Shown here piece by piece: positions 1,124 to 58,962 of a stretch of 64,000 bases of DNA; positions within the stretch are counted from its first letter, which is position 1; each line of letters starts with the position of its first letter. The stretch lies in assembly GCF_003595195.1 (NCBI RefSeq), contig NZ_CP032418.1, forward strand, positions 198,501 to 262,500. The letters run 5' to 3'. The stretch comes from Paenisporosarcina cavernae (lineage in GTDB: Bacteria > Bacillota > Bacilli > Bacillales_A > Planococcaceae). A program made the translations under genes and the position numbers. The notes beneath the pieces were generated by a model, which saw nothing but the letters and a program-made list of their open reading frames with translations, had not been told where the DNA came from and made no database searches.

Positions 1124-1207
1124 CGCAAGTGAATCTCGCGCTTTGCGCCGAGAGAATTAGCGTATGCGCTGATAGAAGATGACGATCCGCTTATAGGAGG
1201 TTCTTCT
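1124..1207. repeat. 21-nt periodic array, GCGCYGATAGAA word
   Basis: Four units start at 1124, 1145, 1166 and 1187, exactly 21 nt apart. They begin CGCAAGTGAATC, GCGCCGAGAGAA, GCGCTGATAGAA and CCGCTTATAGGA. The same word recurs in a second array at 8299. The array fills the gap between two convergent MFS genes (1015-1310), and nothing else is visible there apart from the terminator. Confidence 0.6.
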
Positions 1208-1310
1208 TCCTCTTATTTTGATATTCTAGACACTTTCTTGATGAATCATTTCACCAAGGTAGTTCTTTAAAAATCACTCACTATGGAAAAGTAATTAAAA
1301 TTGTATAATT

Positions 1311-2507
1311 TCATCTATTTTTCCAATCAACTTCTTGTAAATCATTATTCCGCCGTTTTTTATTCAGCAGGATATACATGATTAAACTTGCCACGACTAA
1401 GAAGAATCCAGTTACATATACATTCCGATAGCCCCATTCACTTGCTAAAATACCAAGTGCAAATGCTCCGATTGCCATCCCCATATCCATCGAGTTAAAA
1501 AATAGTGAATTTGCCATTCCTGATTTTTCCCGTTCGACTGAGTCGATTAGCTGTGCTTGGAAAATAGGTGTAATCGAACCGAATCCAAGTCCAATTATCG
1601 CTCCAGACAAGATTAATGACCAAGACGCGTGCGCGGAAAATAGAACGACGAGCCCAATTGCAAAAAGAACCATGGAAGGAACAATTATTACTTTGGCACC
1701 GTATAAATCACTCCATTTTCCTGTGAATGGACGGAATAGGAGCATCGCACTCGCGTAAACTAGGAAGAAGTAACTTGCTGCTGTCACTAGTTTCATTTCC
1801 GCAGCGAAAAGCGGCAAATACGTCGTGATCCCGGAATAAGCTAGCGCTAACAAGAAAATTGGTATGACTAACTTCACTGTGCGAGGATCAATAATTTCTT
1901 TCCAATTAAATTTTGTGCTCATTTTTGGAACGAGATTACGCTCAATAATAGGGATACGAATCATAAAGGCGATAGGTAACAAAATAACGGAGAGACCAAT
2001 AGAGAGTAAAAATGTTTCCATATAAGCACTATGATTAGCTAATGTTAGTGCTAAATATGGTCCAAATACCATCCCAATTCCCATCGCGAGCGAAAAATAA
2101 CTGAAACCCTCGCCGCGACGATTCACGGGTAAAATTTCTGCTGCAACAGTTCCCATCACGGTGGTTAAGACACCAAATGATACACCGTGTACAACTCGTA
2201 GAATTAGCAGGGCCGTAATGTGTGTCGCAACAGGATACATGAGTGCTGCTAGCAAATAAACAAAGCTAGAAAGAAGTAGCAATGTCTTTTGGGAATAACG
2301 GGTTACCCATTTACCCGCAAATGGACGAACCGCAATTGCACCGACAAAGAAAAGTGTTAAGACAAGTCCAATCTGTGGGGCGCTAGCATGTAACGCGTGA
2401 TCTGCATATAAAGGAAGCATGGTTAGTAGTAAATAAAAAATAAAGAACACGAAAAAGTTGATGACTGTAATCAGGATAAAATCTCGTGTCCAAAGTGGCT
2501 GTTTCAT
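1311..2507 (-). CDS. MFS transporter (DHA1-like exporter)
   Basis: A complete 398-residue permease with about twelve hydrophobic helices. The N-terminal segment MKQPLWTRDFILITVINFF, the loop motif RPFAGKWVTRYSQK and its second-half echo RPFTGKWSDLYGAK are typical of the drug/metabolite-efflux branch related to Bacillus YwoG/YfkF. The start follows AGGAGG at a good distance. It stands alone, convergent with the partial MFS gene on its left. Substrate unknown. Confidence 0.85.
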   Translation of the reverse strand: MKQPLWTRDFILITVINFFVFFIFYLLLTMLPLYADHALHASAPQIGLVLTLFFVGAIAVRPFAGKWVTRYSQKTLLLLSSFVYLLAALMYPVATHITALLILRVVHGVSFGVLTTVMGTVAAEILPVNRRGEGFSYFSLAMGIGMVFGPYLALTLANHSAYMETFLLSIGLSVILLPIAFMIRIPIIERNLVPKMSTKFNWKEIIDPRTVKLVIPIFLLALAYSGITTYLPLFAAEMKLVTAASYFFLVYASAMLLFRPFTGKWSDLYGAKVIIVPSMVLFAIGLVVLFSAHASWSLILSGAIIGLGFGSITPIFQAQLIDSVEREKSGMANSLFFNSMDMGMAIGAFALGILASEWGYRNVYVTGFFLVVASLIMYILLNKKRRNNDLQEVDWKNR

Positions 2508-2697
2508 CGAATCCTCCTAAAAAACATCAATGATTTAATTGTATCAATAGATAAAGAGGAACGGGTTGAAAATGCTTAGAAAGTCGAAATTTTTTCTGAA
2601 ATACAGAAAAAAGCTTTTTTTTTGATGTTAATTTCTAACTAATTCACGATCCGATAAATGAATTGCAAGCTATCAGTAGATGGTTTCACAAATCGGT

Positions 2698-2723
2698 TGA
2701 ATCTTTTTTGGAATAGAATCGTA
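2698..2723 (+). promoter_or_regulatory. Candidate ECF-sigma (SigW-like) promoter
   Basis: TGAATC, 16 nt, CGTA lies upstream of the Yip1 gene. SigW-type ECF promoters of Bacillus follow TGAAAC-N16-CGTA, so there is one mismatch. A SigA reading is worse: TTGAAT to TAGAAT is 19 nt. It lies in the 312-base gap 2508-2819, which otherwise holds only the divergent MFS start region and an A/T-rich imperfect hairpin near 2605-2640. Confidence 0.4.
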
Positions 2724-2819
2724 GAATAAAGAGGGGCGATAGTTCGACATTATTTTACAAAAATGTATGTCCAAGAAAAACGTTCTACGATACACTTAAG
2801 AGAAAAGGGGGCAACAATC

Positions 2820-3470
2820 ATGCAAGAAATTAGAGAGACAGAAACAGAGCAGCTTAATCCATTTATCTCGATTTGGACAAAAACGAGGGAGACTGTTCGA
2901 TATGCGTTAGAGTACAAAAGAGAAAAGTATTTTTACTTCATTATTCTTATTGCGGGAATTTTAGCACTTTTACCATCTGTTTTTGACACGACGCTAGGCT
3001 TTGAAATACCTATTATAGTGGCGATACTATTAGCACTTATACTTGGTCCGATTCTTGGATTTATCTCTACCATGATTGGTGCGGGTATTTATTTATTAGT
3101 AGGGAAACTATTTAAAGGGAAAGCAACATTTAATGAAATGTGGAAAACAATCGCTCTAACACAACTTGTTAGTATTTGGATGGCACCACTGTTATTAATC
3201 GGAGCTTTCTTTACAAAAGGATCTTATTTCTCGGATCCGTTTGCTACGACTGTATCACCTACGGCAACCGCAGTAGATGCGATCATTGGAATTTTCCTAC
3301 TTGTACTCGGAATTTGGAGCATTATCATTTCGAGTAAAGCAATTGGTGAAGCGCACCAATTCTCTAGTTGGAAAGGCTTCTTTACAATGCTAATCCCAGG
3401 TGTAATTGTATTTATTATTGCAGTTGTGATTATCGTTACGTTGTCTTTTGCAATGTTCGGCACATTTTAA
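2820..3470 (+). CDS. Yip1-family membrane protein
   Basis: This 216-residue protein has a short polar N-terminus (about 45 residues) and five hydrophobic segments. The central stretch LGPILGFISTMIGAGIYLLV followed by GKLFKGKATFNEMW is characteristic of the Yip1 domain. The start at 2820 is preferred over an in-frame ATG at 2763 because AAAAGGGGG sits just upstream of it. In Bacillus, YknW is a Yip1 protein of the SigW stimulon that works with an ABC exporter. No exporter neighbours this one, so its role is open. A terminator follows at once. Confidence 0.75.
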   Translation: MQEIRETETEQLNPFISIWTKTRETVRYALEYKREKYFYFIILIAGILALLPSVFDTTLGFEIPIIVAILLALILGPILGFISTMIGAGIYLLVGKLFKGKATFNEMWKTIALTQLVSIWMAPLLLIGAFFTKGSYFSDPFATTVSPTATAVDAIIGIFLLVLGIWSIIISSKAIGEAHQFSSWKGFFTMLIPGVIVFIIAVVIIVTLSFAMFGTF

Positions 3471-3478
3471 GTAGTCAT

Positions 3479-3512
3479 CCTCTTACCTTCATTGGTAAGG
3501 GGATTTTTTTGT
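3479..3512 (+). terminator. Terminator of Yip1 gene
   Basis: The stem CCTCTTACC / GGTAAGGGG with loop TTCATT is followed by A and a T-run. It is a simple intrinsic terminator nine bases after the stop. The next 220 bases hold no convincing gene. Confidence 0.8.
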
Positions 3513-3735
3513 GGGAAGATCAAAAAGTTGAGTGCGACCAGTTCGCATTGACAGGAACGCGAACAATTCCATTTGAAAATAATAATCCTTCTTTTTGTAA
3601 AGCTACTTTCAAGGCGAATCAAACGACGGAAGCAAATTTAGAGAGAAATTCCTGGTCGTTTGAAATTTCTGATAAAAAAGAATTGTTAAACTTCCATTCT
3701 TTGCAGTAAGATAGTAGGTACAAAGAAATAGAACG

Positions 3736-5388
3736 GTGGAATTTGTCGTGGTGTCAAAACAACTTGCGTTAATGGATTCGATTTTGGAAGTGCGAAAAAT
3801 CGCCCTTTCCGAACCAAAGATCGCTTACAAAAAAGCAGATGAATATCGTATTCAAGCAAAAGCAGTACTAGCAAAAGAGCAAGAAGCAGCTGCTTTATTT
3901 GTCATGGCGTTGTCTAGTCGATCGATGACAAAGTTAGAAGAATGTTATAACCACGCATATGATGCATTAAAGTTATACGAAGAATTAGAGCATAGGGATG
4001 GTCAGTCCGAATCGCTGAATCTTATCGGAATCGTTTATTTTTATTATGGAATGTATGAACAAGCTCTAGAGTATTTTTTAAAAGCGCTTTATTTGATTGA
4101 GGATACAGATCAATTCCTTATCTTAAGCCGGATTTATAATAATAAAGGCGAAGTTTATCGAGAAGTGGGCAATGAAGAGGAAGCGTTGAAAGCATTCGAG
4201 AAGGCAAGGGACATCTGTGAAAAGCATGATTTCAAGCATAATTTAGGCGTCATTTTAGAAAATATTGGCGAAATTTATTACAATCGGCAAAATTACGCGG
4301 AAAGCTATCAATACCTTCAAAAGAGTTATGCCATTTTAAAAGAGTTGTCAGACACGACTTCTTTAGCCGAAGTAGAAAACAAAATTGGACGTATTTATTT
4401 TCATTGGAAAGAATTCGACAAAGCGCGAACTCATTTTGAGAATTCGTTAAAGCGGTTGGAATTTCTGGGGAATAAATTTTACATAATTGAAGTATTGATC
4501 AATCTTGCGGAATCGGCATTGCTCGATTCGGAGGAAGAGTTTTTAGCATTAATGAAGCGAGCACTATCGTTCGCAGAAGATATTGAAGCAAGAAAATCCA
4601 CAAGCAAAATCTTTAAACGATTAAGCGAGTATTATGAACAAACGTCCGAATACAAACACGCGCTTGACTATTATAAAAAGTATCACCATGTGGAACAAGC
4701 AATTGAAACATCTGCAGTCTCTCAAAAATTAGAAATTATAAAAATTGAGTTAAATAAAGTATTTGCTGGCAAAGAAGTCGAGAAAATGGCGAAAGTGAAT
4801 GAGCAACTGGAATATGAAATTTCCACACAAAAGAAAATGTTAACAGAATTAGAGCAAGCAAATGTATCGTTGCATGGTGAAGCGTATATTGATGAACTGA
4901 CACAAGTGTGTAATCGCCGCGCAGTGATGAAATATTTAAATGACCTGTGGAAATCGGAGGAGAAGTCATCGAATCTCATTTCTCTCTTAATGTTCGATAT
5001 TGATTTCTTTAAACATTACAACGATATGCACGGGCACGTAGAAGGAGATAAATGTTTAAAAGCAGTTGCTGCAACGTTAAAAAACGAGTTATCTTCAGTT
5101 GAAGGAATCGTTGGACGATATGGTGGGGAAGAGTTTGTGGCGGTTTTAGAAAGTGTGTCATTAGACGTTTTGAACGAATTGACCGATCGAATTCGTCAGT
5201 CCGTCTCGAAGTTACCATTTTCATTTATCAAAGATGCGAAAACACATCCGGTAACGATTAGTATAGGAGCAGTTCACGGGAAGCGAAACGAGTTTGGCCA
5301 GCAGGAAGAAATGTTTGTCAAAGCGGATGGTGCCCTTTATCGCTCCAAATCTGGCGGGCGAAATCGGACAACTATTATGGAGCAGTAG
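3736..5388 (+). CDS. TPR-GGDEF protein, probable diguanylate cyclase
   Basis: A 550-residue cytoplasmic protein. Residues ~30-335 are helical repeats of TPR type (for example ALEYFLKALYLIED, YYNRQNYAESYQYLQKSYA). A coiled coil follows (~345-385), then a GGDEF domain opening with DELTQVCNRRA. The active site is GGEEF at residues 463-467, consistent with c-di-GMP synthesis. The inhibitory RxxD site normally five residues before it is absent (SSVEGIVGRYGGEEF), so product inhibition should be weak. The start is uncertain: GTG 3736 has no clear ribosome site, and GTG 3748/3751 or ATG 3772 are alternatives. Confidence 0.85.
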   Translation: MEFVVVSKQLALMDSILEVRKIALSEPKIAYKKADEYRIQAKAVLAKEQEAAALFVMALSSRSMTKLEECYNHAYDALKLYEELEHRDGQSESLNLIGIVYFYYGMYEQALEYFLKALYLIEDTDQFLILSRIYNNKGEVYREVGNEEEALKAFEKARDICEKHDFKHNLGVILENIGEIYYNRQNYAESYQYLQKSYAILKELSDTTSLAEVENKIGRIYFHWKEFDKARTHFENSLKRLEFLGNKFYIIEVLINLAESALLDSEEEFLALMKRALSFAEDIEARKSTSKIFKRLSEYYEQTSEYKHALDYYKKYHHVEQAIETSAVSQKLEIIKIELNKVFAGKEVEKMAKVNEQLEYEISTQKKMLTELEQANVSLHGEAYIDELTQVCNRRAVMKYLNDLWKSEEKSSNLISLLMFDIDFFKHYNDMHGHVEGDKCLKAVAATLKNELSSVEGIVGRYGGEEFVAVLESVSLDVLNELTDRIRQSVSKLPFSFIKDAKTHPVTISIGAVHGKRNEFGQQEEMFVKADGALYRSKSGGRNRTTIMEQ

Positions 5389-5499
5389 GTGCTCGCTGAG
5401 ACAAGGCATCATGAGCAATCCGTTCATGGTGCTTTTTGATGTTAGTTTAATGTCTGTTCTAGAACACATAAGATAGACGGAAATAGGAGGAGGGGAAAA

Positions 5500-6501
5500 A
5501 TGCCATACGTGTTAGTTCGCGACGATATTACAAAAATGAATGTGGATTTCATTGTTAATCCATCTAATACTTTACTTGAAAAAGGTGCTGGGACGAGCGG
5601 CATGATTTTCGATGCAGCAGGGGAGACTGATTTAGAAACTGTTTGTATATCCCTTCGTCCCGTTCCATTGACGCAAGCAGTCCATACCCCAGCTTTTGAC
5701 TTGCCAAGCCGCCACATTCTGCACGTGGCAGTACCAACTTTCGGCTTTCATCTACAAAGTGATCGAGCTCTTTTGATGGAGACTTACAATCATGCACTGA
5801 TGCTTGCCGACAAACTGAATGCACGTACGATTGCTTTTCCATTACTTGGCTCAGGTGCGAACGGTTACCCAAAAGAAATGGCTTTTGACATTGCGAATAA
5901 AGCTATTACTGCTTACTTACAGCGACATGACATAACAGTGTACCTCGTGTTATTTGATCAAGAAGCCGTGGAAGTGTCTCGTAAGATAAAAGCATCTGTG
6001 CAGCATTTTATTGACCAGCATTATGTGGATCAAGCGGAAAAACACTACAAACGCCGTAATCGACGGCTAGATATACAAATGGCTCCTCGAGTAGTGGAGG
6101 AGGGTCAATTTGAGTTTGAAGTAAATGAAATGCGATCCTTAGACGATGTGCTGCTAGAATTAGAGGAAAGTTTTTCAGAACGCTTACTTCGTTTCATTGA
6201 CCAAAAAGGAATGACCGATGTAGATGCTTATAAAGGAGCAAATATCGATCGGCGATTGTTCTCGAAAATTCGGACGAATAAGGAATATCAACCGCAAAAG
6301 AAAACGGTCTTCGCATTTGCGATTTCCCTTCGATTGAATCTAGATGAGGCGAAAGATTTACTACAAGCTGCCGGCTATTCGCTGTCGCGTAGTAGTAAGT
6401 TCGACGTGATCATGGAGTATTTCTTGGTGAATGAAGTCTATGACCTAATGGAAGTGAATGAAACGTTATTTGCATTTGATCAACCTATTTTAGGTGCGTA
6501 A
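5500..6501 (+). CDS. Macro domain protein with C-terminal HTH-like domain
   Basis: Residues ~1-165 form a macro (ADP-ribose binding) domain. VNPSNTLLEKGAG matches the first ligand loop and GSGANGYP the phosphate loop, though GAG and GAN replace the more usual GGG and G[VI]Y. Residues ~225-325 are an all-helical domain (GANIDRRLFSKIR, KKTVFAFAISLRLNLDEAKDLL) that resembles an XRE-like helix-turn-helix often fused to macro domains in Firmicutes. The start has AGGAGGAGG in front. The VWA gene follows 108 bp later on the same strand. It may read or remove ADP-ribose and may regulate, but neither is proven. Confidence 0.75.
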   Translation: MPYVLVRDDITKMNVDFIVNPSNTLLEKGAGTSGMIFDAAGETDLETVCISLRPVPLTQAVHTPAFDLPSRHILHVAVPTFGFHLQSDRALLMETYNHALMLADKLNARTIAFPLLGSGANGYPKEMAFDIANKAITAYLQRHDITVYLVLFDQEAVEVSRKIKASVQHFIDQHYVDQAEKHYKRRNRRLDIQMAPRVVEEGQFEFEVNEMRSLDDVLLELEESFSERLLRFIDQKGMTDVDAYKGANIDRRLFSKIRTNKEYQPQKKTVFAFAISLRLNLDEAKDLLQAAGYSLSRSSKFDVIMEYFLVNEVYDLMEVNETLFAFDQPILGA

Positions 6502-6609
6502 AACGCCTTTGAAAATAGAAAGTAAAATGTCGCTTTCGATGCGACCATTTCTGTCGTTATTCTTTGTATGATGAACGTGTACTTACATCATTCATTGGAG
6601 GAATTAAAC

Positions 6610-7242
6610 ATGAAAACAGAATTGGTATTTATCTTAGACAAAAGCGGCTCCATGTCAGGACTTGAGAAAGATACTATTGGTGGATTTAATTCGCTTGTGG
6701 CAAAGCAACGCAAGGAAGAAGGTGAGGCCATCATTACCACTGTATTGTTTGACCATGACTGTGAATTGTTGCATGACAGAATTGATATGGACGGGATATC
6801 TCCTATGACAGAAGAGGAGTATAGGCTTGGAGGGACGACAGCCTTGCTTGATGCAATAGGAATGACAATTCAAAAAATCGCGAAAGCACATCAACACACG
6901 AAACAAGAGGTCCGCCCAGAAAAAGTTCTGGTGGTGATCACGACGGACGGTATGGAAAATGCTAGTCGAGAGTTTACAATCGAGAAAGTGCGTCACTTAG
7001 TTTCGGATAAACAGAAAACAGGTTGGGAATTTCTCTTTTTAGGTGCGAATATTGATGCACTTTCTACGGCAGATTCATATGGCATTAAACAAGAAAATGC
7101 CGTAAATTTTCACGCGGATGAAGCGGGTATGCAGTTAAATTATCAAGTGGTGAATGAAGCTGTTTCGAGTTTTAGACAAGGTAGAAAATTAGAAAAATCG
7201 TGGAAACAAGAGATTGAACAAGATTTTGAAACGAGAAAATAA
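6610..7242 (+). CDS. VWA domain protein
   Basis: A 210-residue protein that is almost entirely a von Willebrand A domain. The metal-ion site is complete: DKSGSMSG near residue 9, the Thr of GGTTALLDA near residue 78, and the Asp of TTDGMENA near residue 115. There is no signal peptide or membrane segment, so it is cytoplasmic. The start at 6610 follows GGAGG; an in-frame ATG at 6568 has none. It pairs with the macro-domain gene and probably binds a protein partner. Confidence 0.8.
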   Translation: MKTELVFILDKSGSMSGLEKDTIGGFNSLVAKQRKEEGEAIITTVLFDHDCELLHDRIDMDGISPMTEEEYRLGGTTALLDAIGMTIQKIAKAHQHTKQEVRPEKVLVVITTDGMENASREFTIEKVRHLVSDKQKTGWEFLFLGANIDALSTADSYGIKQENAVNFHADEAGMQLNYQVVNEAVSSFRQGRKLEKSWKQEIEQDFETRK

Positions 7243-7254
7243 AGGCGTTTTCGA

Positions 7255-7284
7255 GGGGTAGCGAAATTAGCTGTTCCTTTTTTC
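7255..7284 (+). terminator. Terminator after VWA gene
   Basis: GGGGTAGC and GCTGTTCC form an eight-pair stem with several G-U pairs around GAAATTA, followed by TTTTTT at 7278-7283. Confidence 0.55.
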
Positions 7285-7346
7285 ATTTCCAAAAAGTGTC
7301 TAAATGGCAGGCGTTTCGGGAATGTCAGAAGTAGGGAGTGATACAG

Positions 7347-7793
7347 ATGGCGTTTGACTACGATTTAGATTTTGACAGCATCGATTTTCGGCAAAAACCG
7401 GAATTATACCGAGTTGGCCGTGGAGAGCAGGGGGTGCTTTTAGTAGAACCGTATAAGTCGGAAATTTTGCCGCATTGGCGATTTAAAACGCCTGATATTG
7501 CCAAGAAGTCCTCGGAGAAGATTATGGAATTGTTTGAGGAATACCGGAAAAAAGACGATTTTGTCGGAATGGATATGGCGAGAAAGTTTATCCAAATGGG
7601 CTATACGCGCGCAAGACGATACACGAATTATAAGGGTGGGCGAAAATACAACGAAGACGGATCCATCAAAGAACGAGATATAGACCCTGTAAAAGCAGAA
7701 TCAGCATCGATATTTAAAAAGAGATGGGACGAAATTAGAGAAGATGAGGACTATTTAAAACGGAAAAAGGCGCATCAAAAAAAGTACGGGTAA
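7347..7793 (+). CDS. DUF4385 family protein
   Basis: A 148-residue basic cytoplasmic protein. RVGRGEQGVLLVEPYKSEI, PHWRFKT, and the C-terminal YTRARRYTNYKGGRKY followed by a Lys-rich tail match the DUF4385 family as I know it. Its function is unknown. The start at ATG 7347 is chosen because AGGGAG ends about eight bases upstream; the in-frame GTG at 7338 lies inside that site. It stands alone behind the VWA terminator. Confidence 0.7.
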   Translation: MAFDYDLDFDSIDFRQKPELYRVGRGEQGVLLVEPYKSEILPHWRFKTPDIAKKSSEKIMELFEEYRKKDDFVGMDMARKFIQMGYTRARRYTNYKGGRKYNEDGSIKERDIDPVKAESASIFKKRWDEIREDEDYLKRKKAHQKKYG

Positions 7794-7807
7794 AAAACTT
7801 GAACATG

Positions 7808-7827
7808 ATATACCGTTAGGGGTATAT
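7808..7827 (+). promoter_or_regulatory. CsoR/CstR-like operator
   Basis: ATATACC, six bases GTTAGG, GGTATAT is a near-perfect inverted repeat 25 bp before the rhodanese start. It resembles the TACCC/GGGTA operators of the CsoR/CstR family. CstR answers to persulfide and controls rhodanese-type genes, which fits the gene downstream. No csoR-type gene is in the window. Confidence 0.4.
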
Positions 7828-7852
7828 TGTAGTGGAGAAAAGGAGGATAAAA

Positions 7853-8218: not shown

Positions 8219-8233
8219 CGTAGGACTGATTGG

Positions 8234-8268
8234 GAGGAAATCTTTGCGGAGATTTTCTCTTTTTTATT
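8234..8268 (+). terminator. Terminator of rhodanese gene
   Basis: GAGGAAATCT and AGATTTTCTC form a ten-pair stem with one G-U pair around TTGCGG, followed by TTTTTT. Confidence 0.8.
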
Positions 8269-8298
8269 TTAAAAGAAATATATTGGCAGCTTGAATTT

Positions 8299-8400
8299 GC
8301 GCCGATAGAAATCACGGTTGCGATTATAGATTGAGATATACACTGATAGCGGCTGCCGCTGCGCTTATAGAAGCCTTTTTCTCGTAAGAAATTGACCCAT
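8299..8400. repeat. 21-nt periodic array, GCGCYGATAGAA word (second locus)
   Basis: Units start at 8299, 8320, 8341, 8361 and 8381 (steps 21, 21, 20, 20). They begin GCGCCGATAG, GCGATTATAG, CACTGATAGC, GCGCTTATAG and CTCGTAAGAA. The word matches the array at 1124. It lies in the 332-base gap 8219-8550 between two genes on the same strand, after the terminator. The last 100 bases of the gap should carry the promoter of the GNAT gene. Confidence 0.6.
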
Positions 8401-8550
8401 AACCCCACTTTTTTGCTTCCTCTTTCACCCCTAGTGACTAACTTGTTGAAAATTATTAACGAAAGCATCCAATTATTGCTAAAATGAAAGAGCAAAGCAG
8501 TAAAGGGGGGACTACCGTTGTTTAGTGTCATACGTAAAGAAGGAGAATAT

Positions 8551-11546: not shown

Positions 11547-11689
11547 ACGAACTCCTCGTTTCTAAGATGTTATAGTTTGTATACGAGCGAACAGGTAAAA
11601 AGTTTCACTTTCCCCATGAATCAGTAATCGGTACTCAATCACTTGAAACGAACAAACTGCCAGTATATAGTAGTAGCAACTCAATAGAA

Positions 11690-11823
11690 CGATGTTTTCT
11701 AGGGTTCCGTATCGAAAGGTAGTCTGGTCCGAGAGAAAACGCACGACTTATTGTTGTGACACGGAAGGATAAAAGCCTGGGAGATACTGCAAATGCAGCG
11801 TTCTCTTGGGCTGTTTTTTTTGG
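11690..11823 (+). ncRNA. Guanidine-I (ykkC) riboswitch with terminator
   Basis: The conserved blocks are in order: CTAGGGTTCCG (11699), GGTCCGAGAG (11726), ACACGGAAGGATAAAAGCC (11759) and GGGAGA. These identify the ykkC/guanidine-I class. The 3' part can refold as AGCCTGGGAGA with TCTCTTGGGCT (11774-11812) followed by eight T, an intrinsic terminator. Guanidine binding should therefore allow readthrough into the two SMR genes. A further hairpin lies before the ribosome site. The 392-base gap 11547-11938 is explained by these elements. Confidence 0.93.
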
Positions 11824-19691: not shown

Positions 19692-19723
19692 ATATAAAAA
19701 CACCCCGCCCGTAGGCAAGGTGT
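19692..19723 (-). terminator. Terminator of the small RNA
   Basis: On the minus strand ACACCTTGCC, loop TACG, GGCGGGGTGT, then TTTTTATATT. Ten pairs with one G-U pair. Its orientation, away from the oxidase operon, shows that the transcript runs leftward. Confidence 0.8.
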
Positions 19724-19815
19724 ATCTCGAAAGTTTGCGGCGTTCCAAACCACGCTCCACAACGTGTTCCTTTTCAGGAGTGTTTGTACGTCTTACGCAA
19801 ACGAGCTCATCGCGC
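19692..19815 (-). ncRNA. Unassigned structured small RNA, about 120 nt
   Basis: Read on the minus strand, a promoter (-35 TTGACT, 17 nt, -10 TAAAGT) is followed by a GC-rich segment with nested pairing. GTTTGCG (19803-19797) pairs with CGCAAAC, inside which CAAAC/GTTTG and CTCC/GGAG pair again. A perfect intrinsic terminator ends it. No open frame with a ribosome site is visible and no gene follows on this strand, so it is neither a leader nor a coding RNA. It is not 6S, SRP, tmRNA or RNase P by size and motifs. I do not recognise the family. Confidence 0.6.
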
Positions 19816-21864: not shown

Positions 21865-21930
21865 CTGAAATTGCACGGTAGAAGGGTAGTACTCCTTCTC
21901 CGTGCTATTGCTTTCAATGAAGTGAGTTTT

Positions 21931-22046
21931 CCCATAGATACGTGAAAAATGCCCATAGAAAGACGAAATCGCCCATAGAAACGTTTTATTTCCCATAGAA
22001 GCGACTGAATTTCTCATAGAGAGACGATAGTTTCCCATAGATCAAA
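21931..22046. repeat. 21-nt periodic array, CCCATAGA word (six copies)
   Basis: CCCATAGA starts at 21931, 21952, 21972, 21992 and 22034, with CTCATAGA at 22013. The steps are 21, 20, 20, 21 and 21. The 12-13 bases between copies are A-rich and often begin AGACG or ACG. The array lies between convergent genes ending at 21864 and 22140. Confidence 0.85.
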
Positions 22047-28204: not shown

Positions 28205-28288
28205 GGGATCCTATCTATTTTGGGACCAGCCCATTTCTACGAACTTCCAGCCCAAAATGAATAAATCCCGAGACATTAGACAATTGTT
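28205..28288. repeat. 21-nt periodic array, CCAGCCCA word (weak)
   Basis: CCAGCCCA occurs at 28226 and 28247, 21 bases apart. Looser units sit one step on either side: GGGATCC at 28205 and CCGAGAC at 28268. The array lies between convergent genes. It is the weakest of the eight arrays. Confidence 0.35.
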
Positions 28289-28489
28289 TCCAGTAAAATT
28301 AAGTCGACTTAGTATCCTTGTTCTCTTATAAAGCCAGAACTTTGGAATGAAGATTAATAATCCTTTACAGGCGTATTTGTACGGTGAATAAAAATGGTTT
28401 TAGATTGATAGGACCAGTAGACAAGAGTATTCCCATTTTACTAATTTTTTCTTGAAGAACCATAGAAGTCACCTTTATTAATTGCCCTA

Positions 28490-33073: not shown

Positions 33074-33093
33074 CGTTTTGCGGACGCAAAACG
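33074..33093. repeat. CGTTTTGCG palindrome
   Basis: CGTTTTGCG and CGCAAAACG are perfect nine-base arms around GA. Near-identical palindromes lie at 46470 and 46509, so this is a dispersed element. No T-run follows. Confidence 0.6.
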
Positions 33094-33110
33094 ATCCGAT
33101 AGGAGAAAGA

Positions 33111-33190
33111 CCTGTCAACGAGCGAAAAAACGTGCAGAAAACCGAAAAATCCTGTCAGCGAACGCGAAAAACATACAATGAACCATGTAA
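33111..33190. repeat. 20-nt periodic array, CCTGTCA/CATGCA words
   Basis: Units start at 33111 (CCTGTCAACGAGCG), 33131 (CGTGCAGAAAACCG), 33151 (CCTGTCAGCGAACG) and 33171 (ACATACAATGAACC). The same words, in the same order and reverse-complemented, make the 146-bp repeats at 45032 and 46323. The 441-base gap 32981-33421 holds this array, two inverted repeats and the rpiR promoter. Confidence 0.65.
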
Positions 33191-45031: not shown

Positions 45032-45177
45032 TTGGAAGAAAATGGCTCATTGCATGTTTTTTGCGTTTATTAACAGGAGATTTCCGTTTTTTGCATGTTT
45101 TGAGGCAAAACTTGCATGTTTTACAGAGAAAGTTGCACGATTTTCACGCTCACTGACAGGACTTTAACCGAAGTAGA
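45032..45177. repeat. 146-bp direct repeat, left copy (21-nt periodic)
   Basis: This copy and the one at 46323-46468 have equal length and differ at only nine positions by my count. Inside, words recur at 45050 TTGCATG, 45071 TAACAGG, 45091 TTGCATG, 45112 TTGCATG, 45133 TTGCACG and 45154 TGACAGG, steps of 20-21. It lies 123 bases before the NERD gene. Confidence 0.9.
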
Positions 45178-46322: not shown

Positions 46323-46468
46323 TTGGAAGAAAATGGCTCATTGCATGTTTTTTGCGTTTATTAACAGGAGATTTCCATTTTTTGCACGTTTTGAGTTGAA
46401 ACTTGCATGTTTTGCAAAGAAAGTTGCACGATTTTCATGCTCACTGACAGGACTTTAACCAAAGTAGA
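46323..46468. repeat. 146-bp direct repeat, right copy (21-nt periodic)
   Basis: Same sequence as 45032-45177 apart from nine substitutions, nearly all transitions. Words at 46341, 46362, 46382, 46403, 46424 and 46445 have steps of 20-21. It begins 63 bases after the NERD stop and lies in the 320-base convergent gap 46260-46579, together with two palindromes and a minus-strand terminator. Confidence 0.9.
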
Positions 46469-46469
46469 C

Positions 46470-46532
46470 CGTTTTGCATCCGCAAAACGCCCTTATCCAC
46501 ACTATTTAATCGTTTTCGCGTGCGAAAACGAT
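46470..46532. repeat. Two GC/AT palindromes
   Basis: CGTTTTGC / GCAAAACG (46470-46489, loop ATCC), then ATCGTTTTCGC / GCGAAAACGAT (46509-46532, loop GT). They resemble the palindrome at 33074 and directly follow the 146-bp repeat. There are no T-runs. Confidence 0.6.
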
Positions 46533-46538
46533 CCATTC

Positions 46539-46572
46539 AACAAAAAAGAAGTTTTTCGCATTCGCGAAAAAC
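46539..46572 (-). terminator. Terminator of atl-peptide operon
   Basis: On the minus strand GTTTTTCGC and GCGAAAAAC are perfect nine-base arms with a four-base loop, followed by TTCTTTTTTGTTG. It lies eight bases after the 31-codon gene. Confidence 0.82.
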
Positions 46573-52612: not shown

Positions 52613-52684
52613 AAAGCGGAAATTGTACGAAAATTTGGGTATTGTCATTCTAAAATGCATATGATAGGATGAATTTAATCATTT

Positions 52685-52702
52685 TGTGCAAACGCTTTCA
52701 CA
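52685..52702 (+). promoter_or_regulatory. LacI-family operator / cre site 1
   Basis: TGTGCAAACGCTTTCACA is nearly symmetric with the central CG typical of LacI-family operators. It also fits the CcpA cre consensus TGNAANCGNTNNCA. It lies about 80 bp before the binding-protein gene. Confidence 0.72.
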
Positions 52703-52729
52703 GTTTAGCGTTTCCTTTTTTTAACAATC

Positions 52730-52747
52730 TGTGCAAACGTTTTCACG
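52730..52747 (+). promoter_or_regulatory. LacI-family operator / cre site 2
   Basis: TGTGCAAACGTTTTCACG, a second copy 45 bases after the first, so on nearly the same helical face. The promoter of the binding-protein gene must lie between or over the two sites. The LacI-type gene at 55963 or CcpA would bind. Confidence 0.72.
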
Positions 52748-52780
52748 GCTTTAACAAACTAATTATTGGGGGATTTATTC

Positions 52781-54079
52781 ATGAAAAACAGCAAATTGCG
52801 TTTCGGTCTGTTAGCGTTCATCCTTGTACTTTCAGGAATTTTAGCTGGATGTAACTCTGATGGTGATTCATCGAACGGAGATGGCGGTAAAGATGTAACA
52901 ATCGACATTTTCCAATTCAAAGTAGAGTTTAAAGATCAATTTGAAGCGTTAGCAAAAGCATACGAAGAAGAGCACGATGGCGTGAAAATCAATATCACTA
53001 CTGTTGGTGGTGGAGAAGATTACGGCGCAGCATTACGTTCTAAATTCGCATCTGGTAAAGAACCTGCGATTTATAATATCGGGGGACCTCAAGATGTAGC
53101 AGACTGGAAAGACAAATTAGCAGATTTATCTGATACAAAAGCAGCGGGTGCAGCTCTTGAAGGTTCATTAGACGGAGTAACAGTTGATGATGCAGTACTT
53201 GGACTTCCATACAATCAAGAAGGATATGGATTTATCTACAACAAAGCAGTATTCGAAAAAGCTGGAATTGATGTAGCGTCTATTAAAGACTTAGCTTCAT
53301 TAGAAGCAGCTGTTAAAACATTAGATAGTAAAAAAGATGAGCTAGGATTAGAAGCAGTATTTGCTTTACCTGGTAAAGAAACTTGGGTTACTGGTTTACA
53401 CTTATCAAACGTTTTCATCGCGCCTGAATTTGATAGCAATGTGTTAACTGCATTTGATGCAAAAACAATTGATTTCAAATATGGTGATGCGTTTAAATCA
53501 ATTTTAGATTTACAAAATGACTATTCTGTTCAACCAACAGTAAGCCTAGATTACTCTATGCAAGTTGAAGAGTTATTCTCTTTACAAAAAGTAGCTATGA
53601 TTCAACAAGGTAACTGGGTATACGGATCAATTGCTGGCATTGACGAAGATTTCGCTCAAAACGGCGTTGGCATTCTACCAATTCCTGTAGAAGGATTTGA
53701 AGGAGATTCTATGCCAGTCGGAATTCCAATGTACTGGGGCGTAAACAGCAATGCAGACGAAGCAGTAGTTGACGCATCGAAAGATTTCTTAGACTGGTTG
53801 TATACTTCTGAAAAAGGTAAAGAAACAGTGATGAGCGAATTTAAATTCATCCCTGCTTACGAAGGATATGATTCTTCGAAAATCGCAGATCCAATCTCAC
53901 AAGAAATTTATAAATACGCAGAAGAAGGCAAAACAATTGGCTGGACATTCATGGGTTACCCAACTGGATGGGGTCAAGATGAGCTTGGCGTAGGCATTCA
54001 AAAATACTTGAGCGACGAAGCAAGCTGGGAAGAAGTAGTAGATTCTGCTAAAGCAGCATGGGAAGAAGCTCGTAAATAA
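52781..54079 (+). CDS. Alpha-glucoside ABC transporter, substrate-binding lipoprotein
   Basis: A 432-residue extracellular binding protein (SBP_bac_1) with lipobox ILAGC (Cys at residue 24). FKVEFKDQFEALAKAYEEEH and the late WTFMGYPTGWGQDELG are typical of the MalE/MsmE-type sugar binders, the latter rich in ring-stacking aromatics. It should capture maltodextrins or isomalto-oligosaccharides. The start follows GGGGGA. It is separated from the permease genes by a strong hairpin, which would raise its share of transcripts. Confidence 0.88.
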   Translation: MKNSKLRFGLLAFILVLSGILAGCNSDGDSSNGDGGKDVTIDIFQFKVEFKDQFEALAKAYEEEHDGVKINITTVGGGEDYGAALRSKFASGKEPAIYNIGGPQDVADWKDKLADLSDTKAAGAALEGSLDGVTVDDAVLGLPYNQEGYGFIYNKAVFEKAGIDVASIKDLASLEAAVKTLDSKKDELGLEAVFALPGKETWVTGLHLSNVFIAPEFDSNVLTAFDAKTIDFKYGDAFKSILDLQNDYSVQPTVSLDYSMQVEELFSLQKVAMIQQGNWVYGSIAGIDEDFAQNGVGILPIPVEGFEGDSMPVGIPMYWGVNSNADEAVVDASKDFLDWLYTSEKGKETVMSEFKFIPAYEGYDSSKIADPISQEIYKYAEEGKTIGWTFMGYPTGWGQDELGVGIQKYLSDEASWEEVVDSAKAAWEEARK

Positions 54080-54094
54080 CACGCGCATCGAAAA

Positions 54095-54129
54095 CAAAAC
54101 AAAGTAGCCACTCGTGCTACTTTGTTTTG
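54095..54129 (+). terminator. Intercistronic hairpin, partial terminator
   Basis: CAAAACAAAGTAGC and GCTACTTTGTTTTG are perfect 14-base arms around CACTCGT. The right arm has Ts but no real T-run follows. It lies between the binding-protein and permease genes and probably attenuates or protects the upstream mRNA. Confidence 0.72.
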
Positions 54130-54266
54130 TCTGTTTAAGACGATGTCGTAAATTTCCATTGTTGTCGGTAAGTACCGATTGTTTTAGTAAACAAAAACGG
54201 AAACGCTAAATTAGTCTCAATAGAGTAAGATTAAAAGTTAGAAAGAAAAGTTGTAGGAGGTGGCAT

Positions 54267-55127
54267 ATGCGCACCCGTAGTTTAACGTATTGGTTGTTCC
54301 TTGCCCCCGTATTATTGGCACTTACACTTGTTGTAATTGCTCCATTATTACTCGGTGTCTATTATTCATTCACAGACTGGAACGGAATTTCAACCAACAG
54401 CTTTGTTGGTTTTCAAAATTATATTGATTTGTGGTCAGACAAAGAATTTAAAGATTCGTTATGGTTCACGACTAAATTCTCGATTGTCTCGGTTATTTTA
54501 ATTAACTTTATCGGTTTGTCCCTTGCGTTAATTGTTACATCGAAAATCAAATCGAGTAAGTTTCTTCGTACCATTTTCTTCATGCCAAACTTAATTGGTG
54601 GATTAATCTTAGGATTTATCTGGCAGTTCATTTTCATCAAAGTGTTTGGTACTGTTGGAACGATCTTCGGTATGGAAGGCTTAAAAGGATGGCTATCTAC
54701 ACCTGAAACTGGATTTTGGGGGTTAGTCATTTTGATGAGCTGGCAAATGTCCGGATATATTATGGTCATTTACATCGCTTATTTAGAAGGTGTATCGAAA
54801 GAATTACTAGAAGCATCTGAAATCGATGGCGCAAATGCTTTTCAACGTTTCCGATTTGTGGTGTTTCCTTTAGTGGCACCAGCGTTTACTGTATCGATGT
54901 TTTTAACGTTATCGAATACTTTTAAATTGTACGATCAAAACTTGTCCTTAACAGCAGGTGGTCCATATAATTCTACTCAAATGGTTGCGATGGAAATTTT
55001 CAACACAGCCTTTGGACAATATGATATGGCATATGCACAAGCAAAAGCGGTTATTTTCTTTATCATCGTAGCAATCATCGCTTTAGTACAAGTGTACATT
55101 AACAAGAAACGTGAGGTGGAAATGTAA
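54267..55127 (+). CDS. Sugar ABC transporter permease (MalF-like)
   Basis: A 286-residue permease with six helices. The EAA loop reads EASEIDGANAFQRFRFVVFP. The protein lacks the large P2 loop of enterobacterial MalF, as usual in Gram-positives. AGGAGGTGG precedes the start. A segment GGAAACGCTAAA at 54200 repeats, inverted, a sequence between the two operators upstream of the binding protein. The stop shares a base with the next start (TAATG). Confidence 0.9.
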   Translation: MRTRSLTYWLFLAPVLLALTLVVIAPLLLGVYYSFTDWNGISTNSFVGFQNYIDLWSDKEFKDSLWFTTKFSIVSVILINFIGLSLALIVTSKIKSSKFLRTIFFMPNLIGGLILGFIWQFIFIKVFGTVGTIFGMEGLKGWLSTPETGFWGLVILMSWQMSGYIMVIYIAYLEGVSKELLEASEIDGANAFQRFRFVVFPLVAPAFTVSMFLTLSNTFKLYDQNLSLTAGGPYNSTQMVAMEIFNTAFGQYDMAYAQAKAVIFFIIVAIIALVQVYINKKREVEM

Positions 55128-55942
55128 TGAGAAAATCACGCCGTTTCCCACTAGAGATACTCGGTATCCTACTTGCGTTATTGTGGTTAGCACCATTTTA
55201 CCTAATGATTGTGAACTCGTTAAAAACGAAACGAGAGATCTTTTCGGATACGTTAAAGCTTCCAGATACATTTACATTAGATAATTATAAAGAAGCGTTT
55301 GTGCAACTAGATTTTGTGCAAACATTTTTCAACTCGTTCATCATCACTGTACTGAGTGTATTGATCATCATCGTATTTTCTTCCATGGCAGCTTATGCGT
55401 TGTCTCGTTCGAAAAGTCGACTAAGCACCATCTTGTTTTTTGTTTTTGTCGCTGCGATGTTAATACCTTTCCAATCCGTGATGATTCCGTTAATTACTAT
55501 TTTCGGGAAGTTTGAAATGTTAAATCGTGCAGGGTTGATCTTCATGTATTTAGGATTTGGTGCAAGTTTATCCATCTTCCTGTATCACGGTGCACTTACG
55601 TCTATTCCTAAATCGTTAGATGAAGCTGCCACTATTGATGGGGCGAATAAATTCCAAGTATTTTGGTATATTATTTTCCCGATGTTAAAGCCAATTACAG
55701 TAACGGTCGCGATTTTAAATACGATTTGGATCTGGAATGACTATTTACTACCGTCTCTAGTGATCAACCAACAAGGAATGGAAACGATTCCGCTGAAAAT
55801 GTTCTTCTTCTTCGGAGAATATACAAAACAATGGCATCTAGCGCTAGCTGGATTAACACTGGCGATTATACCAGTCATTATTGGCTATTTCTTCGCACAA
55901 CGAGAAATTATTAAAGGTGTGTCAGATGGTGCGGTAAAATAG
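55127..55942 (+). CDS. Sugar ABC transporter permease (MalG-like)
   Basis: A 271-residue permease with six helices and the EAA loop EAATIDGANKFQVFWYIIFP. The end RE-I-I-K-G-V-SDGAVK is the typical MalG C-terminus (QREIIKGVSDGAVK). It forms the membrane channel with the preceding permease and is translationally coupled to it. The LacI regulator follows after 20 bases. Confidence 0.92.
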   Translation: MRKSRRFPLEILGILLALLWLAPFYLMIVNSLKTKREIFSDTLKLPDTFTLDNYKEAFVQLDFVQTFFNSFIITVLSVLIIIVFSSMAAYALSRSKSRLSTILFFVFVAAMLIPFQSVMIPLITIFGKFEMLNRAGLIFMYLGFGASLSIFLYHGALTSIPKSLDEAATIDGANKFQVFWYIIFPMLKPITVTVAILNTIWIWNDYLLPSLVINQQGMETIPLKMFFFFGEYTKQWHLALAGLTLAIIPVIIGYFFAQREIIKGVSDGAVK

Positions 55943-55962
55943 TAGAAAAAGGGGGAGTAAAC

Positions 55963-56991
55963 ATGGCAACAACGATTATTGATGTAGCAAAAGAAGCAAA
56001 TGTCTCCCCATCTACTGTTTCCCGAGTCATTGCAAACAACCCTAGAATTAGTGAACGAACAAAACAGAAAGTTCGAGAAGTGATGGACCGTCTGGACTAT
56101 CATCCGAATTTTCAAGCTCGCAACTTAGCGGCAAAGTCGACAAAAACGATTGGTGTGATCATGGCTAGTTCTTCTGTCCTCGCTTTTCAGAATCCGTTCT
56201 TTCCAGAAGTGTTAAGAGGGATTTGTAGTGCGGCGCATGCGAGTAAATACGGCATGTATTTATCAACGGGCGAAACGGAAGAAGAGATTTTTGACGAAGT
56301 TGTCTCCATGACGCAAGGTCGACGCGTAGACGGAATCATCCTCCTTTATTCAAAAGTGAAGGATCGAACGATGGACTATTTGCAGTCCATTGATTTTCCC
56401 TTTGTTGTGGTTGGTCGTCCCTTTGAGAATGAAGCATCCGTGACGTATGTAGATAATGATAATACGGCGATCGCTGCAGAAGTCGTGGACTATTTATTGT
56501 CGCTTGGACATCAAGATATCGCCTTCGTTGGAGGGGATATCAACTATGTGGTGTCGCGTGATCGTTTAGCGGGTTATCAGCAAGCATTAGAAACAGCTGG
56601 AATTCCTTTTCAACAAGCGTATTATTTACAAGATTCGACGGTGAATGAAGATGGGGCTTCTGCCATTGATGCGTTATTTCATTTACCAAATCGACCGACA
56701 GCATTAATTGCCCATGATGATTTAACCGCATACGAAATCATTAGTATTTTAGAGCGGAAAGAAATTAACGTGCCAACAGATATCTCTATTATTAGCTTTA
56801 ATAACCATGTGCTTTCCCAGCATTTACGTCCGCCGCTTACTTCCGTGGATATTCAAATATATGACCTTGGTTTAGAGGCGACGGAATGTTTATTAAACAA
56901 AATGGATGATCCGAAACTTCCAGCGACGCATCGTATCATTGGTGCGAAAATAATAACTAGAGAATCATGTGCACGACGTGGAATAGACTGA
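55963..56991 (+). CDS. LacI family regulator of alpha-glucoside genes
   Basis: A 342-residue repressor. Residues ~3-55 are the LacI HTH and hinge (TIIDVAKEANVSPSTVSRVI, HPNFQARNLA), and the rest is a periplasmic-binding-like effector domain. Its place inside the operon, and the two LacI-type operators before the binding-protein gene, make local autoregulation likely; MalR-type with maltose or a glucoside as inducer. It starts after GGGGGAG. Confidence 0.9.
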   Translation: MATTIIDVAKEANVSPSTVSRVIANNPRISERTKQKVREVMDRLDYHPNFQARNLAAKSTKTIGVIMASSSVLAFQNPFFPEVLRGICSAAHASKYGMYLSTGETEEEIFDEVVSMTQGRRVDGIILLYSKVKDRTMDYLQSIDFPFVVVGRPFENEASVTYVDNDNTAIAAEVVDYLLSLGHQDIAFVGGDINYVVSRDRLAGYQQALETAGIPFQQAYYLQDSTVNEDGASAIDALFHLPNRPTALIAHDDLTAYEIISILERKEINVPTDISIISFNNHVLSQHLRPPLTSVDIQIYDLGLEATECLLNKMDDPKLPATHRIIGAKIITRESCARRGID

Positions 56992-57009
56992 GAAAAATGA
57001 GGAATTAGT

Positions 57010-58668
57010 ATGGAAAAGCGTTGGTGGAAAGAAGCAGTAGCTTATCAAGTGTATCCAAGAAGTTTCCAAGATTCGAATGGAGATGGAATTGGTGATTTAC
57101 AGGGAATGATCTCGAAATTAGATTACATAAAAGAGCTTGGCATCGATGTAATTTGGATTTGTCCTATGTACAAATCACCGAATGATGACAATGGCTATGA
57201 TATAAGTGATTACCAAGATATTATGGATGAGTTTGGAACGATGGCTGACTTCGACCTGCTTTTAAAAGAAGTTCACGCTCGCGGGATGAAGCTTATTATT
57301 GACTTAGTAATCAATCACACGAGTGATGAACATGAGTGGTTTATCGAATCACGTTCTTCTAAAACGTCGGACAAACGTGACTGGTATATTTGGCGTGATG
57401 GCAAAGATGGCAGAGAACCGAACAACTGGGAAAGTATTTTCAACGGGCCTGCTTGGGAATTAGATGAAAAAACGGGTCAATATTATTTGCACATTTTCTC
57501 TAAAAAGCAACCAGACTTGAACTGGGAAAACAGCGATGTTCGTAAAGCACTATATGATATGGTGAATTGGTGGTTAGACAAAGGAATCGATGGTTTCCGT
57601 GTTGATGCCATTAGTCATATTAAAAAAGACGTCACGTTTGAAGATATGCCTAACCATACAGATCGCCCGATTATTCAAGCGTGGGATAAGTACATGAACG
57701 TGGAAGGCATTCAGCCATTTTTGGGAGAATTAAAAGACGAAACCTTTGCGAAATACGACATCATGACAGTCGGCGAAGCGAATGGTGTGTCCATTGATGA
57801 AATTGATCGATGGGTAGACCCCGAAAAAGGCAAATTCGATATGATTTTCCAATTTGAACACTTAAGTTTGTGGGATGCTGAGTCGAAGAAAGCACTTGAT
57901 ATTATTGAATTAAAAAAGACACTTTCTCGTTGGCAACATGCACTAGATGGTCAAGGTTGGAATGCCCTTTTCATTGAAAATCATGACAAAGCACGCGTCG
58001 TATCTACGTGGGGAAATGACCAAGACTTTTGGAGAGAAAGTGCGACAGCATTTGGTATGATGTATTTCTTCATGCAAGGAACACCGTTCATTTACCAAGG
58101 GCAAGAGATAGGAATGACGAACGTTCATTTTGAAAACCTAGCGGATTACCGCGATGTAGCAACCCACAATTTATATGCTTCTAAAAAAATGGATGGACTT
58201 TCTCACGATGAGCTAATGCAAATTATTTGGGATAGCAGTCGCGATAACTCGCGTACTCCTATGCAGTGGACGGCTGAAGAAAATGCTGGTTTCACGAGTG
58301 GAAGCCCGTGGATTGGTGTAAATCCTAATTACACCGAGTTAAATGTGCAAACACAACAATCGGATCCTACATCGATCCTCTCGTTCTATAAAAAAATGAT
58401 CGCTATACGCAAATCAGCGGACGTATTTGTCTATGGAACATACGATTTACTTTTAGAAGATGATCCGCAAATCTTCGCCTATACACGAACACTTGGAACA
58501 GAGCGCGTATTAATCGTGACGAATCTCTCTGAACACCAAGCAGTATACGCGGGAGATGCAACACTTCGTTACGATCAATTACTACTAGCGAATACAGCAT
58601 GTGCCCTGCATCAAGATGCAAAAAGTATTACACTAGCACCGTACGAAGCACGTCTTTACAACATCTAA
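57010..58668 (+). CDS. GH13 alpha-glucosidase, predicted alpha-1,4 type
   Basis: A 552-residue GH13_31 enzyme, paralogous to the one at 48846. Asp199 in GFRVDAISHIKK, Glu in VGEANG and Asp in IENHDKARVV form the triad. The residue after the nucleophile is Ala200, which in this subfamily goes with alpha-1,4 (maltose-type) specificity, and ENHDKAR replaces NHDQPR of the 1,6-type. It follows the LacI gene by 18 bases and ends the locus at a strong terminator. Confidence 0.88.
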   Translation: MEKRWWKEAVAYQVYPRSFQDSNGDGIGDLQGMISKLDYIKELGIDVIWICPMYKSPNDDNGYDISDYQDIMDEFGTMADFDLLLKEVHARGMKLIIDLVINHTSDEHEWFIESRSSKTSDKRDWYIWRDGKDGREPNNWESIFNGPAWELDEKTGQYYLHIFSKKQPDLNWENSDVRKALYDMVNWWLDKGIDGFRVDAISHIKKDVTFEDMPNHTDRPIIQAWDKYMNVEGIQPFLGELKDETFAKYDIMTVGEANGVSIDEIDRWVDPEKGKFDMIFQFEHLSLWDAESKKALDIIELKKTLSRWQHALDGQGWNALFIENHDKARVVSTWGNDQDFWRESATAFGMMYFFMQGTPFIYQGQEIGMTNVHFENLADYRDVATHNLYASKKMDGLSHDELMQIIWDSSRDNSRTPMQWTAEENAGFTSGSPWIGVNPNYTELNVQTQQSDPTSILSFYKKMIAIRKSADVFVYGTYDLLLEDDPQIFAYTRTLGTERVLIVTNLSEHQAVYAGDATLRYDQLLLANTACALHQDAKSITLAPYEARLYNI

Positions 58669-58674
58669 CGAACT

Positions 58675-58708
58675 GCCTGATCAAACTTTCTTGATCAGGC
58701 TTTTTTTT
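58675..58708 (+). terminator. Terminator of alpha-glucoside locus
   Basis: GCCTGATCAA and TTGATCAGGC are perfect ten-base arms around ACTTTC, followed by eight T. It opens the 351-base gap 58669-59019. Between it and the array at 58857, a purine-rich stretch holds nothing I can assign. Confidence 0.92.
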
Positions 58709-58856
58709 ATTTAGGAAGATTTTCGACGAACCGAAAATCACCAATTGAAATGGAAGGAGGAAGATTTTTGGCATGACAAAAATCAACCCTATTGGATGAA
58801 GGGGCAGAATGTAGAAGGGACTAGGCAAGTGGATAGGGAGGGGGAAAATGGGAGAT

Positions 58857-58962
58857 TGTTCTAATGTTTTCTTGGAGTGTCCCAATGTTTGAGTAAAGTG
58901 TCCCAATGTTCGCGGAAAGTGTCCCAATCACCACGAAAAAGTGTCCCATTCCGCTTATAACC
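58857..58962. repeat. 21-nt periodic array, TGTCCCAAT word (five copies)
   Basis: Units start at 58857 (TGTTCTAATG), 58878, 58899, 58920 (TGTCCCAAT) and 58942 (TGTCCCATT), steps of 21, 21, 21 and 22. The spacers are A/G-rich, ending AAAG. It lies between the convergent glucosidase and pgi genes. Because the step is a multiple of three, the minus strand reads as heptapeptide repeats, but without a ribosome site. Confidence 0.85.

Follow-up and report, generated by a model that had tools for sequence, protein, structure and literature searches.

Short DNA words repeated head to tail at a step of 21 bp, and less often 20 bp, recur in the intergenic gaps of Paenisporosarcina cavernae and of its relatives in the Caryophanaceae, a family also called Planococcaceae. 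The arrays were met in a 64,000-nucleotide stretch, hereafter the window, which covers positions 198501-262500 of the single-contig, 2.54-Mb genome (G000; NZ_CP032418.1). Several lineages show long-term constraint on word and pitch, though it is not demonstrable at every locus, and duplication is the source of the units. Judged from sequence, the arrays may be head-to-tail recognition sites of a putative, drifting DNA-binding factor at the ends of transcription units, a reading held tentatively and at a little under even confidence.

The 21-bp step is a genome-wide property. Beyond the window, G000 was sampled in 40 spread 20-kb stretches, which yielded 362 gaps (95,210 bp); gaps shorter than 60 bp or lying at stretch edges were removed before counting. 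Recurrence of 6-mers in these gaps peaks at lag 21 (z=27), with z=13 at lag 20 and a series of multiples at 42 (z=16), 63 (z=16), 84 (z=14) and 105 (z=11). The only remaining lags with z>4 between 10 and 129 are 10 (4.4), 40 (7.9), 41 (5.4) and 80 (4.6). A chain detector built on 11-bp words returning at 20-22 bp (array threshold 4.5, stricter threshold 6) called an array in 18 of the 362 gaps and in none of the shuffles. The genome-wide lag-21 peak on which an initial annotation of the window had staked its eight proposed arrays is indeed present. At threshold 6, 12 of the 362 gaps retain an array, and control steps of 16-18, 24-26, 27-29 and 30-32 give none. All array counts are lower bounds because degenerate arrays escape the detector; P. 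glaciei and P. 107-1, for instance, hold visible ones in the M20 peptidase gap described below.

The same ruler is found family-wide. Each period from 12 to 45 was scored in 1095 gaps, drawn from G000, from relatives in the family and from named members of it, the named loci all surrounding one gene and not being independent of each other. An array of 20-22 bp occurs in 90 of these gaps. By period there are 10 calls at 20, 82 at 21, 1 at 22 and 27 at 40-42 (doubles), and only 5 at all remaining periods. Of the 371 steps in the 74 arrays with at least four units, 307 measure 21, 37 measure 20 and 27 take another value; 46 arrays step purely by 21 and 3 purely by 20. The step of about 20.7 bases read from the window thus reflects a mixture of steps. 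Words measure 7-13 bp, units 20-21 bp and spacers 8-14 bp, and an array carries 3-35 units.

Contrast between words and spacers is a sign of constraint. In G004, a search that allowed any spacing between 11 and 37 bp placed neighbouring words exactly 21 apart in 81 of 83 cases, and the reversed control pattern gave 3 matches. Eight dispersed G004 copies (L104 dropped; the fetch pattern demanded two adjacent units per locus and left the rest free) differ at 0 of 980 letters of the 7-letter word versus 451 of 1568 spacer letters, with 0 indel cells. Spacers in the G004 and CTATACG arrays are about as dissimilar within an array as between arrays, and two columns beyond the search pattern are 100% conserved in the CTATACG arrays. 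In Planococcus salinarum (G033), 41 of 44 steps (within 60 bp) equal 21, and most spacer columns are only 0.2-0.5 identical, an AAA before the word excepted. The attribution of G033 to this species follows from its locus L131, which shares 100% identity with L201 over 1300 bp, and it sets the family as Caryophanaceae. Two copies in the window, at 45032 and 46323, differ at 1 of 66 word letters versus 7 of 49 spacer letters, and a second paralogous pair in G000 at 0 of 55 versus 4 of 60 (words marked by hand, one left unmarked). Retention of words and spacing beside indel-free, strongly diverged spacers in several relatives supports recognition.

Words were proposed to differ from locus to locus. 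Several do exist, but about five families return at unrelated loci of G000. Family A, with the word AGTGTCCYAATGT, accounts for 20 of the sampled arrays, with 218 units between them (BLAST gives 73 matches, some of which overlap). Family B has the words GCGCYKATAGAA and CCCATAGAA, family C TTGCAYGWTTT / TRACAGGA, family D CGTMARNTAAC and family E GATCGATTC-like words. Within arrays as well as between them, columns of the family A word reach an identity of about 0.8-1.0, by construction in the columns of the search pattern, except for a C/T position (0.63 within, 0.49 between). Its spacer core is 0.50-0.58 identical within arrays and 0.26-0.41 between them; the higher value within arrays suggests local duplication. 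Across a set of 107 arrays in 63 word clusters (part of L126 counted twice, as L201), GATA, ATAG and TAGA are mildly enriched (11 vs 2.9, 10 vs 3.3 and 8 vs 3.0 expected), and many words run by eye from a GC-rich end to an A-rich one.

Genus and family relatives keep the pitch with other words, among them CCAAGTTGGAAAA (G003), CACGTTGTAAAAAT, AGCCGATTAAAT and GTGGCCGATAAAT (G004), CACGTAGTAATTAT (G005), GAACGGGTAGAAA (G006), GGGTAGAATAAAT (G009), TTCGTGCGKWTAC (G018), GGWCACTCG (G024) and, at a step of 20, TTTATCCGC (G019). Density is uneven: arrays were found in 4 of one set of 17 relative stretches (first detector), in 4 of 68 gaps of G001, in 2 of 73 of G008 and, at the named loci surrounding a single gene, in 33 of 121 family gaps. 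Of 100 gaps in Bacillaceae, Staphylococcus and Thermoactinomycetaceae, 1 holds an array and the control step likewise gives 1; eight genomes of other families give 2 of 43 gaps, both weak A/T-rich calls. One array outside the family, in Metabacillus litoralis (L256:928), has a 20-bp pitch and the word AATCGAAGATA. Exact words are narrowly shared. Among 25 genomes of the genus of G018, 1 contains a given G018 word pair; a G004 pair is present in 2 of 250 family genomes, and 2 of 61 genomes carry a pair from family A. A search of genome contigs, a set that may exclude the window's own genome, gave no match to one exact family A pattern.

At one gap, the array is retained across species and its word turns over. 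The gap that follows an M20-type peptidase gene, on its downstream side, holds an array in 16 of 21 Planococcus-clade loci. The 21 loci are L201-L223 minus L207, which is cut, and the Indiicoccus locus L222, which has a short flank and no called array; loci from L224 on, with matches of at most 59% identity, were called empty at this gap and are left out of the count. Words vary by subclade: CGTAAGATAA, CTATACGACACC, GTGTCGATAG, TTCATGTAAAA / TTCAGGTAAG and ACTTCGATAGAA. In a five-species alignment, homologous words have changed together with a TA.G..A core retained, and the conserved portion of a composite of about 230 bp is its GC-rich hairpins, that is, the non-array part. The composite of array and GC-rich hairpin is itself tandemly repeated after the M20 gene in the Planococcus loci L131, L132, L135 and L136. 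By eye, the Planococcus array starts directly past the gene's T-run, whole units have been gained or lost (8 vs 5 in P. ruber / P. 107-1), and higher-order repeats are visible in Planococcus and G018 arrays.

Arrays favour the ends of converging genes. In 45 stretches not picked for arrays, 9 of the 78 gaps between convergent genes hold one, as do 10 of the 248 between co-directional genes and 1 of the 80 between divergent genes (convergent versus all others, 9/78 vs 11/328, p=0.006); with the window included, the counts are 12 of 86, 11 of 269 and 1 of 87 (p=0.0005). The initial annotation had placed an array in five of the six convergent gaps longer than 250 bp of the window. The detector finds one in three of the six; under a different gene call, the array at 58857, missed in that count, falls in a convergent gap. 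In 14 convergent arrays, a predicted terminator separates the array from the left gene in 11 and from the right gene in 8, as called by a simple predictor of our own whose false-positive rate is unmeasured. Genes adjoining ten large family A arrays have an ordinary chromosomal look, judged from their translations.

The location outside genes claimed for the window is broadly true. Chain matches at 21 bp occur in 5 of 587 open reading frames (ORFs) of at least 200 aa in G000 and in 10 of 669 in relatives, with slightly fewer at the other tested lags (0-4 and 0-2, respectively). These are weak matches of 2-4 units, several of them coiled-coil-like, the exception being two false ORFs over G018 arrays. 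A coding function of the arrays is rejected because the mixture of 20-, 21- and 22-bp steps in G000 does not preserve a reading frame and because true arrays are missing from long ORFs.

Words also show a suggestive orientation along the replication strand. If the boundary is put at 1.27 Mb, 14 of 18 family A arrays follow the leading strand, or 13 of 18 if the terminus is placed by skew near 1.21 Mb; the other G000 families do so in 5 of 8, 2 of 4, 2 of 3 and 1 of 3. In G004, 22 of 28 loci run along the leading strand by a hand count with origin and terminus assumed. Orientation of this kind is confounded with gene strand and may reflect only that.

Seven of the eight arrays proposed for the window stand, each place having been read directly and scored against 300 dinucleotide-shuffled versions of the gap it lies in. 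Five are clear, each at p<=0.0033. The first (place 1124, score 6.0) spans 1144..1218 (+) and consists of three good units and a weak one of a family B word of the TGCGCYKATAG type. The second, at 21928..22041 (+; place 21931, score 13.5), lies in a convergent gap and carries six units of the family B variant CCCATAGA at steps of 21/20/20/21/21; its word pair is present at 14 places across five genome regions. A dispersed element at 45032..45168 (+; score 7.5) holds six family C units (TTGCAYGWTTT / TRACAGGA) behind the start TTGGAAGAAAATGGCT, and its second copy occupies 46323..46459 (+; score 6.5). The fifth, at 58855..58950 (+; place 58857, score 13.5), has 4-5 units of the family A word AGTGTCCCAATGT at 21-22 and is flanked by the predicted terminators of two convergent genes. 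Two arrays are weak alone, and neither survives correction for eight tests: four family B units at 8298..8370 (+; steps 21/20/21; place 8299, score 3.0, p 0.017) and about three family C units at 33106..33171 (-; place 33111, score 3.0, p 0.027). Their words, TGCGCCGATAG / TGCGCTTATAG and TGACAGG / TGCACG in the minus-strand reading, belong to genome-wide families, those at 8298..8370 matching elsewhere in the genome. The remaining place, 28205..28300 (+), shows no array above chance (score 1.5, p 0.35).

Short palindromes resembling repetitive extragenic palindromic (REP) sequences adjoin the second dispersed copy at 46476..46570 (strand unassigned; TTTTCGC..GCGAAAA type, three by eye and two by pattern). 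REP-like palindromes TTTTCGC..GCGAAAA / TTTTGCG..CGCAAAA are also seen at window position 33075. Three of the four gaps with such a palindrome in the sample and window also hold an array. Rfam returned only two window matches at gathering score, both outside the arrays: a Guanidine-I riboswitch at 11688-11785 (+; 81.9 bits versus a gathering score of 63) and the small RNA BsrF at 19700-19813 (-), barely above its threshold (50.8 vs 50).

Under the recognition reading, the most economical account of the arrays, each 7-13 bp word would be the site of a sequence-specific DNA-binding factor. Neighbouring sites, two helical turns apart from start to start, would let bound units touch along the DNA, and we infer cooperative binding. 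The resulting row of protein at the ends of transcription units, usually past the predicted terminator, could form a boundary, whether as roadblock, insulator or nucleoid anchor. In each lineage the word would drift together with its factor, and array copies would follow through duplication and conversion. A word that changes between lineages under a fixed step may represent an undescribed DNA-recognition system. The bolder version, in which the factor polymerises head to tail in a family-wide boundary system and the word drifts so fast that sister species keep position and pitch only, is rather unlikely; such a system would parallel, in bacteria, rapidly evolving satellite DNA and the protein that binds it.

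Several observations weigh against recognition. Four arrays compared within two pairs of closely related Planococcus species show no slower change in words (9 of 219) than in spacers (6 of 161). Comparison of orthologous gaps, proposed earlier as a check, bears out retention at the M20 gap and not at the gap downstream of the window's alpha-amylase gene, where 0 of 7 genus relatives reach the threshold of 4.5 (best score 3.5, two GAGCGATAA words in L067). No single motif is common to all words among the 107 arrays and 63 clusters compared, and several word classes per genome would require several factors or one loose one. No binding protein for the arrays was found. The preference for promoter-free gaps fits mere tolerance as well. 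Selection on phase, put forward in the initial annotation, agrees with a fixed step and free words across the family; arrays that step 20 throughout (L175 and L256, with L119 nearly so) drift off one face of 10.5-bp DNA, so the pitch is not to be taken as strict helical phase.

That the arrays are satellite-like neutral or selfish DNA is a distinct possibility and the main rival to recognition. Slippage or unequal exchange would multiply the units, homogenisation within a genome would keep them alike, and the 21-bp step would come from the machinery that duplicates or copies them. Arrays would be harmless in gaps without promoters, in keeping with the single array among divergent gaps, and the gain and loss of whole units in close species, the higher-order repeats and the partly homogenised family A spacers are of the kind expected. 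Dispersed array copies also have common ends, word change is no slower in the close pairs, and weak 21-bp matches show a slight surplus in long ORFs. A free process, however, should yield many periods rather than almost only 20-22 and their doubles. Unchanged words next to strongly diverged, indel-free spacers are likewise unexpected, as is the lack of true arrays from long ORFs, where a 21-bp unit would stay in frame. Duplication, part of the other process offered for the window (tandem duplication with local homogenisation), does occur, as the turnover of whole units and the higher-order repeats show.

A generic effect of DNA shape is improbable. A two-turn GC/AT rhythm could by itself make DNA bend or wrap, as might serve gyrase where genes converge, and both the pitch of about two helical turns and the enrichment in convergent gaps would suit it, as would the GC-rich to A-rich polarity of many words. 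Shape alone nevertheless needs no exact identity of words within arrays and across copies, and the lag-10 signal is weak. More improbable still is an RNA element in transcript 3′ ends serving as a sponge or as a stability or termination signal. Arrays do come after gene ends, and the M20-gap array follows its T-run directly; yet family A in co-directional gaps is sense in 5 cases and antisense in 4 (2 and 3 in other families, whose sense is arbitrary, leaving family A alone as orientation evidence), and predicted terminators commonly stand between gene and array. A role of the DNA itself, or tolerance of such sequence at these places, fits better than an RNA role. Regulators of the LytTR type, which share the step and head-to-tail layout (PMC6193735) and whose case includes GTTG within G003 and G004 words, are hardly credible as binders: G000 has one LytTR match for about five word families, known sites are pairs upstream of promoters, and G015 refutes them as general binder because it bears an array (L146, score 9.0; 100% identical to L214 over 1300 bp) without any LytTR match.

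If the recognition reading is true, a whole bacterial family has an undescribed, fast-evolving DNA-binding system at the ends of its transcription units, and word variants at common positions would make co-evolution of word and binder directly testable. If the arrays are instead neutral, they constitute a satellite DNA of bacteria whose 21-bp ruler lacks an explanation. Under either, the gaps that bear them are not featureless.

No account of such arrays was found among the papers listed by searches of the open-licence PubMed Central (PMC) literature. Known repeat systems share some of their features. Clustered regularly interspaced short palindromic repeats (CRISPR) have repeats of about 24-40 bp and spacers of about 30 bp, unlike the 20-21 bp units and 8-14 bp spacers of the arrays. 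In plasmid-origin iterons and the 20-bp repeats of ParR centromeres, words follow one another head to tail at a distance of about two turns and are recognised by an oligomeric protein, with one array per replicon beside the rep or par gene. The head-to-tail layout at about two helical turns is shared; the many chromosomal arrays and several words described here are not. REP sequences and bacterial interspersed mosaic elements (BIMEs) of enterobacteria are built of palindromes and lie scattered at 3′ ends and where genes converge. Arrays resemble them in placement, and some have REP-like palindromes beside them. Their words, however, are non-palindromic direct repeats with a 21-bp pitch that REP/BIME elements are not known to have, and the one palindrome type searched is present in only 4 of 442 gaps.

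A LytTR repeat is 9 bp long, which with 12 bp gives a 21-bp step. LytTR sites are described as direct repeats mostly 12 bp apart, sometimes 11 or 13, in which sequence diverges and spacing is kept (PMC6193735). On that description, the step agrees with that of the arrays, array words are mostly unlike LytTR words, and the site pairs upstream of promoters contrast with arrays of 3-35 units at gene ends. TAACTGA heptamer repeats likewise form short intergenic direct-repeat arrays at many loci, mostly directly upstream of start codons in the main genome studied; their one word is fixed, whereas array words vary (PMC4679880).

STAR elements of Staphylococcus aureus and S. lugdunensis combine a 14-bp word with 40-44 bp spacers at a step of about 54-58 bp, with one word per genus and loci that differ between species (PMC3532100). 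Their 14-bp consensus, TNTGTTGNGGCCC, was not seen by eye among the 63 cluster consensus words, no pattern search having been made. Like the arrays, they are intergenic, dispersed direct repeats of word plus spacer with a start signature, a variable unit number and no known function (PMC3532100). Unlike these elements, the arrays take 307 of 371 steps at 21 bp, and an orthologous gap retains its array with changed words. STAR elements are the nearest described kind; the arrays differ from them in word, pitch and positional behaviour.

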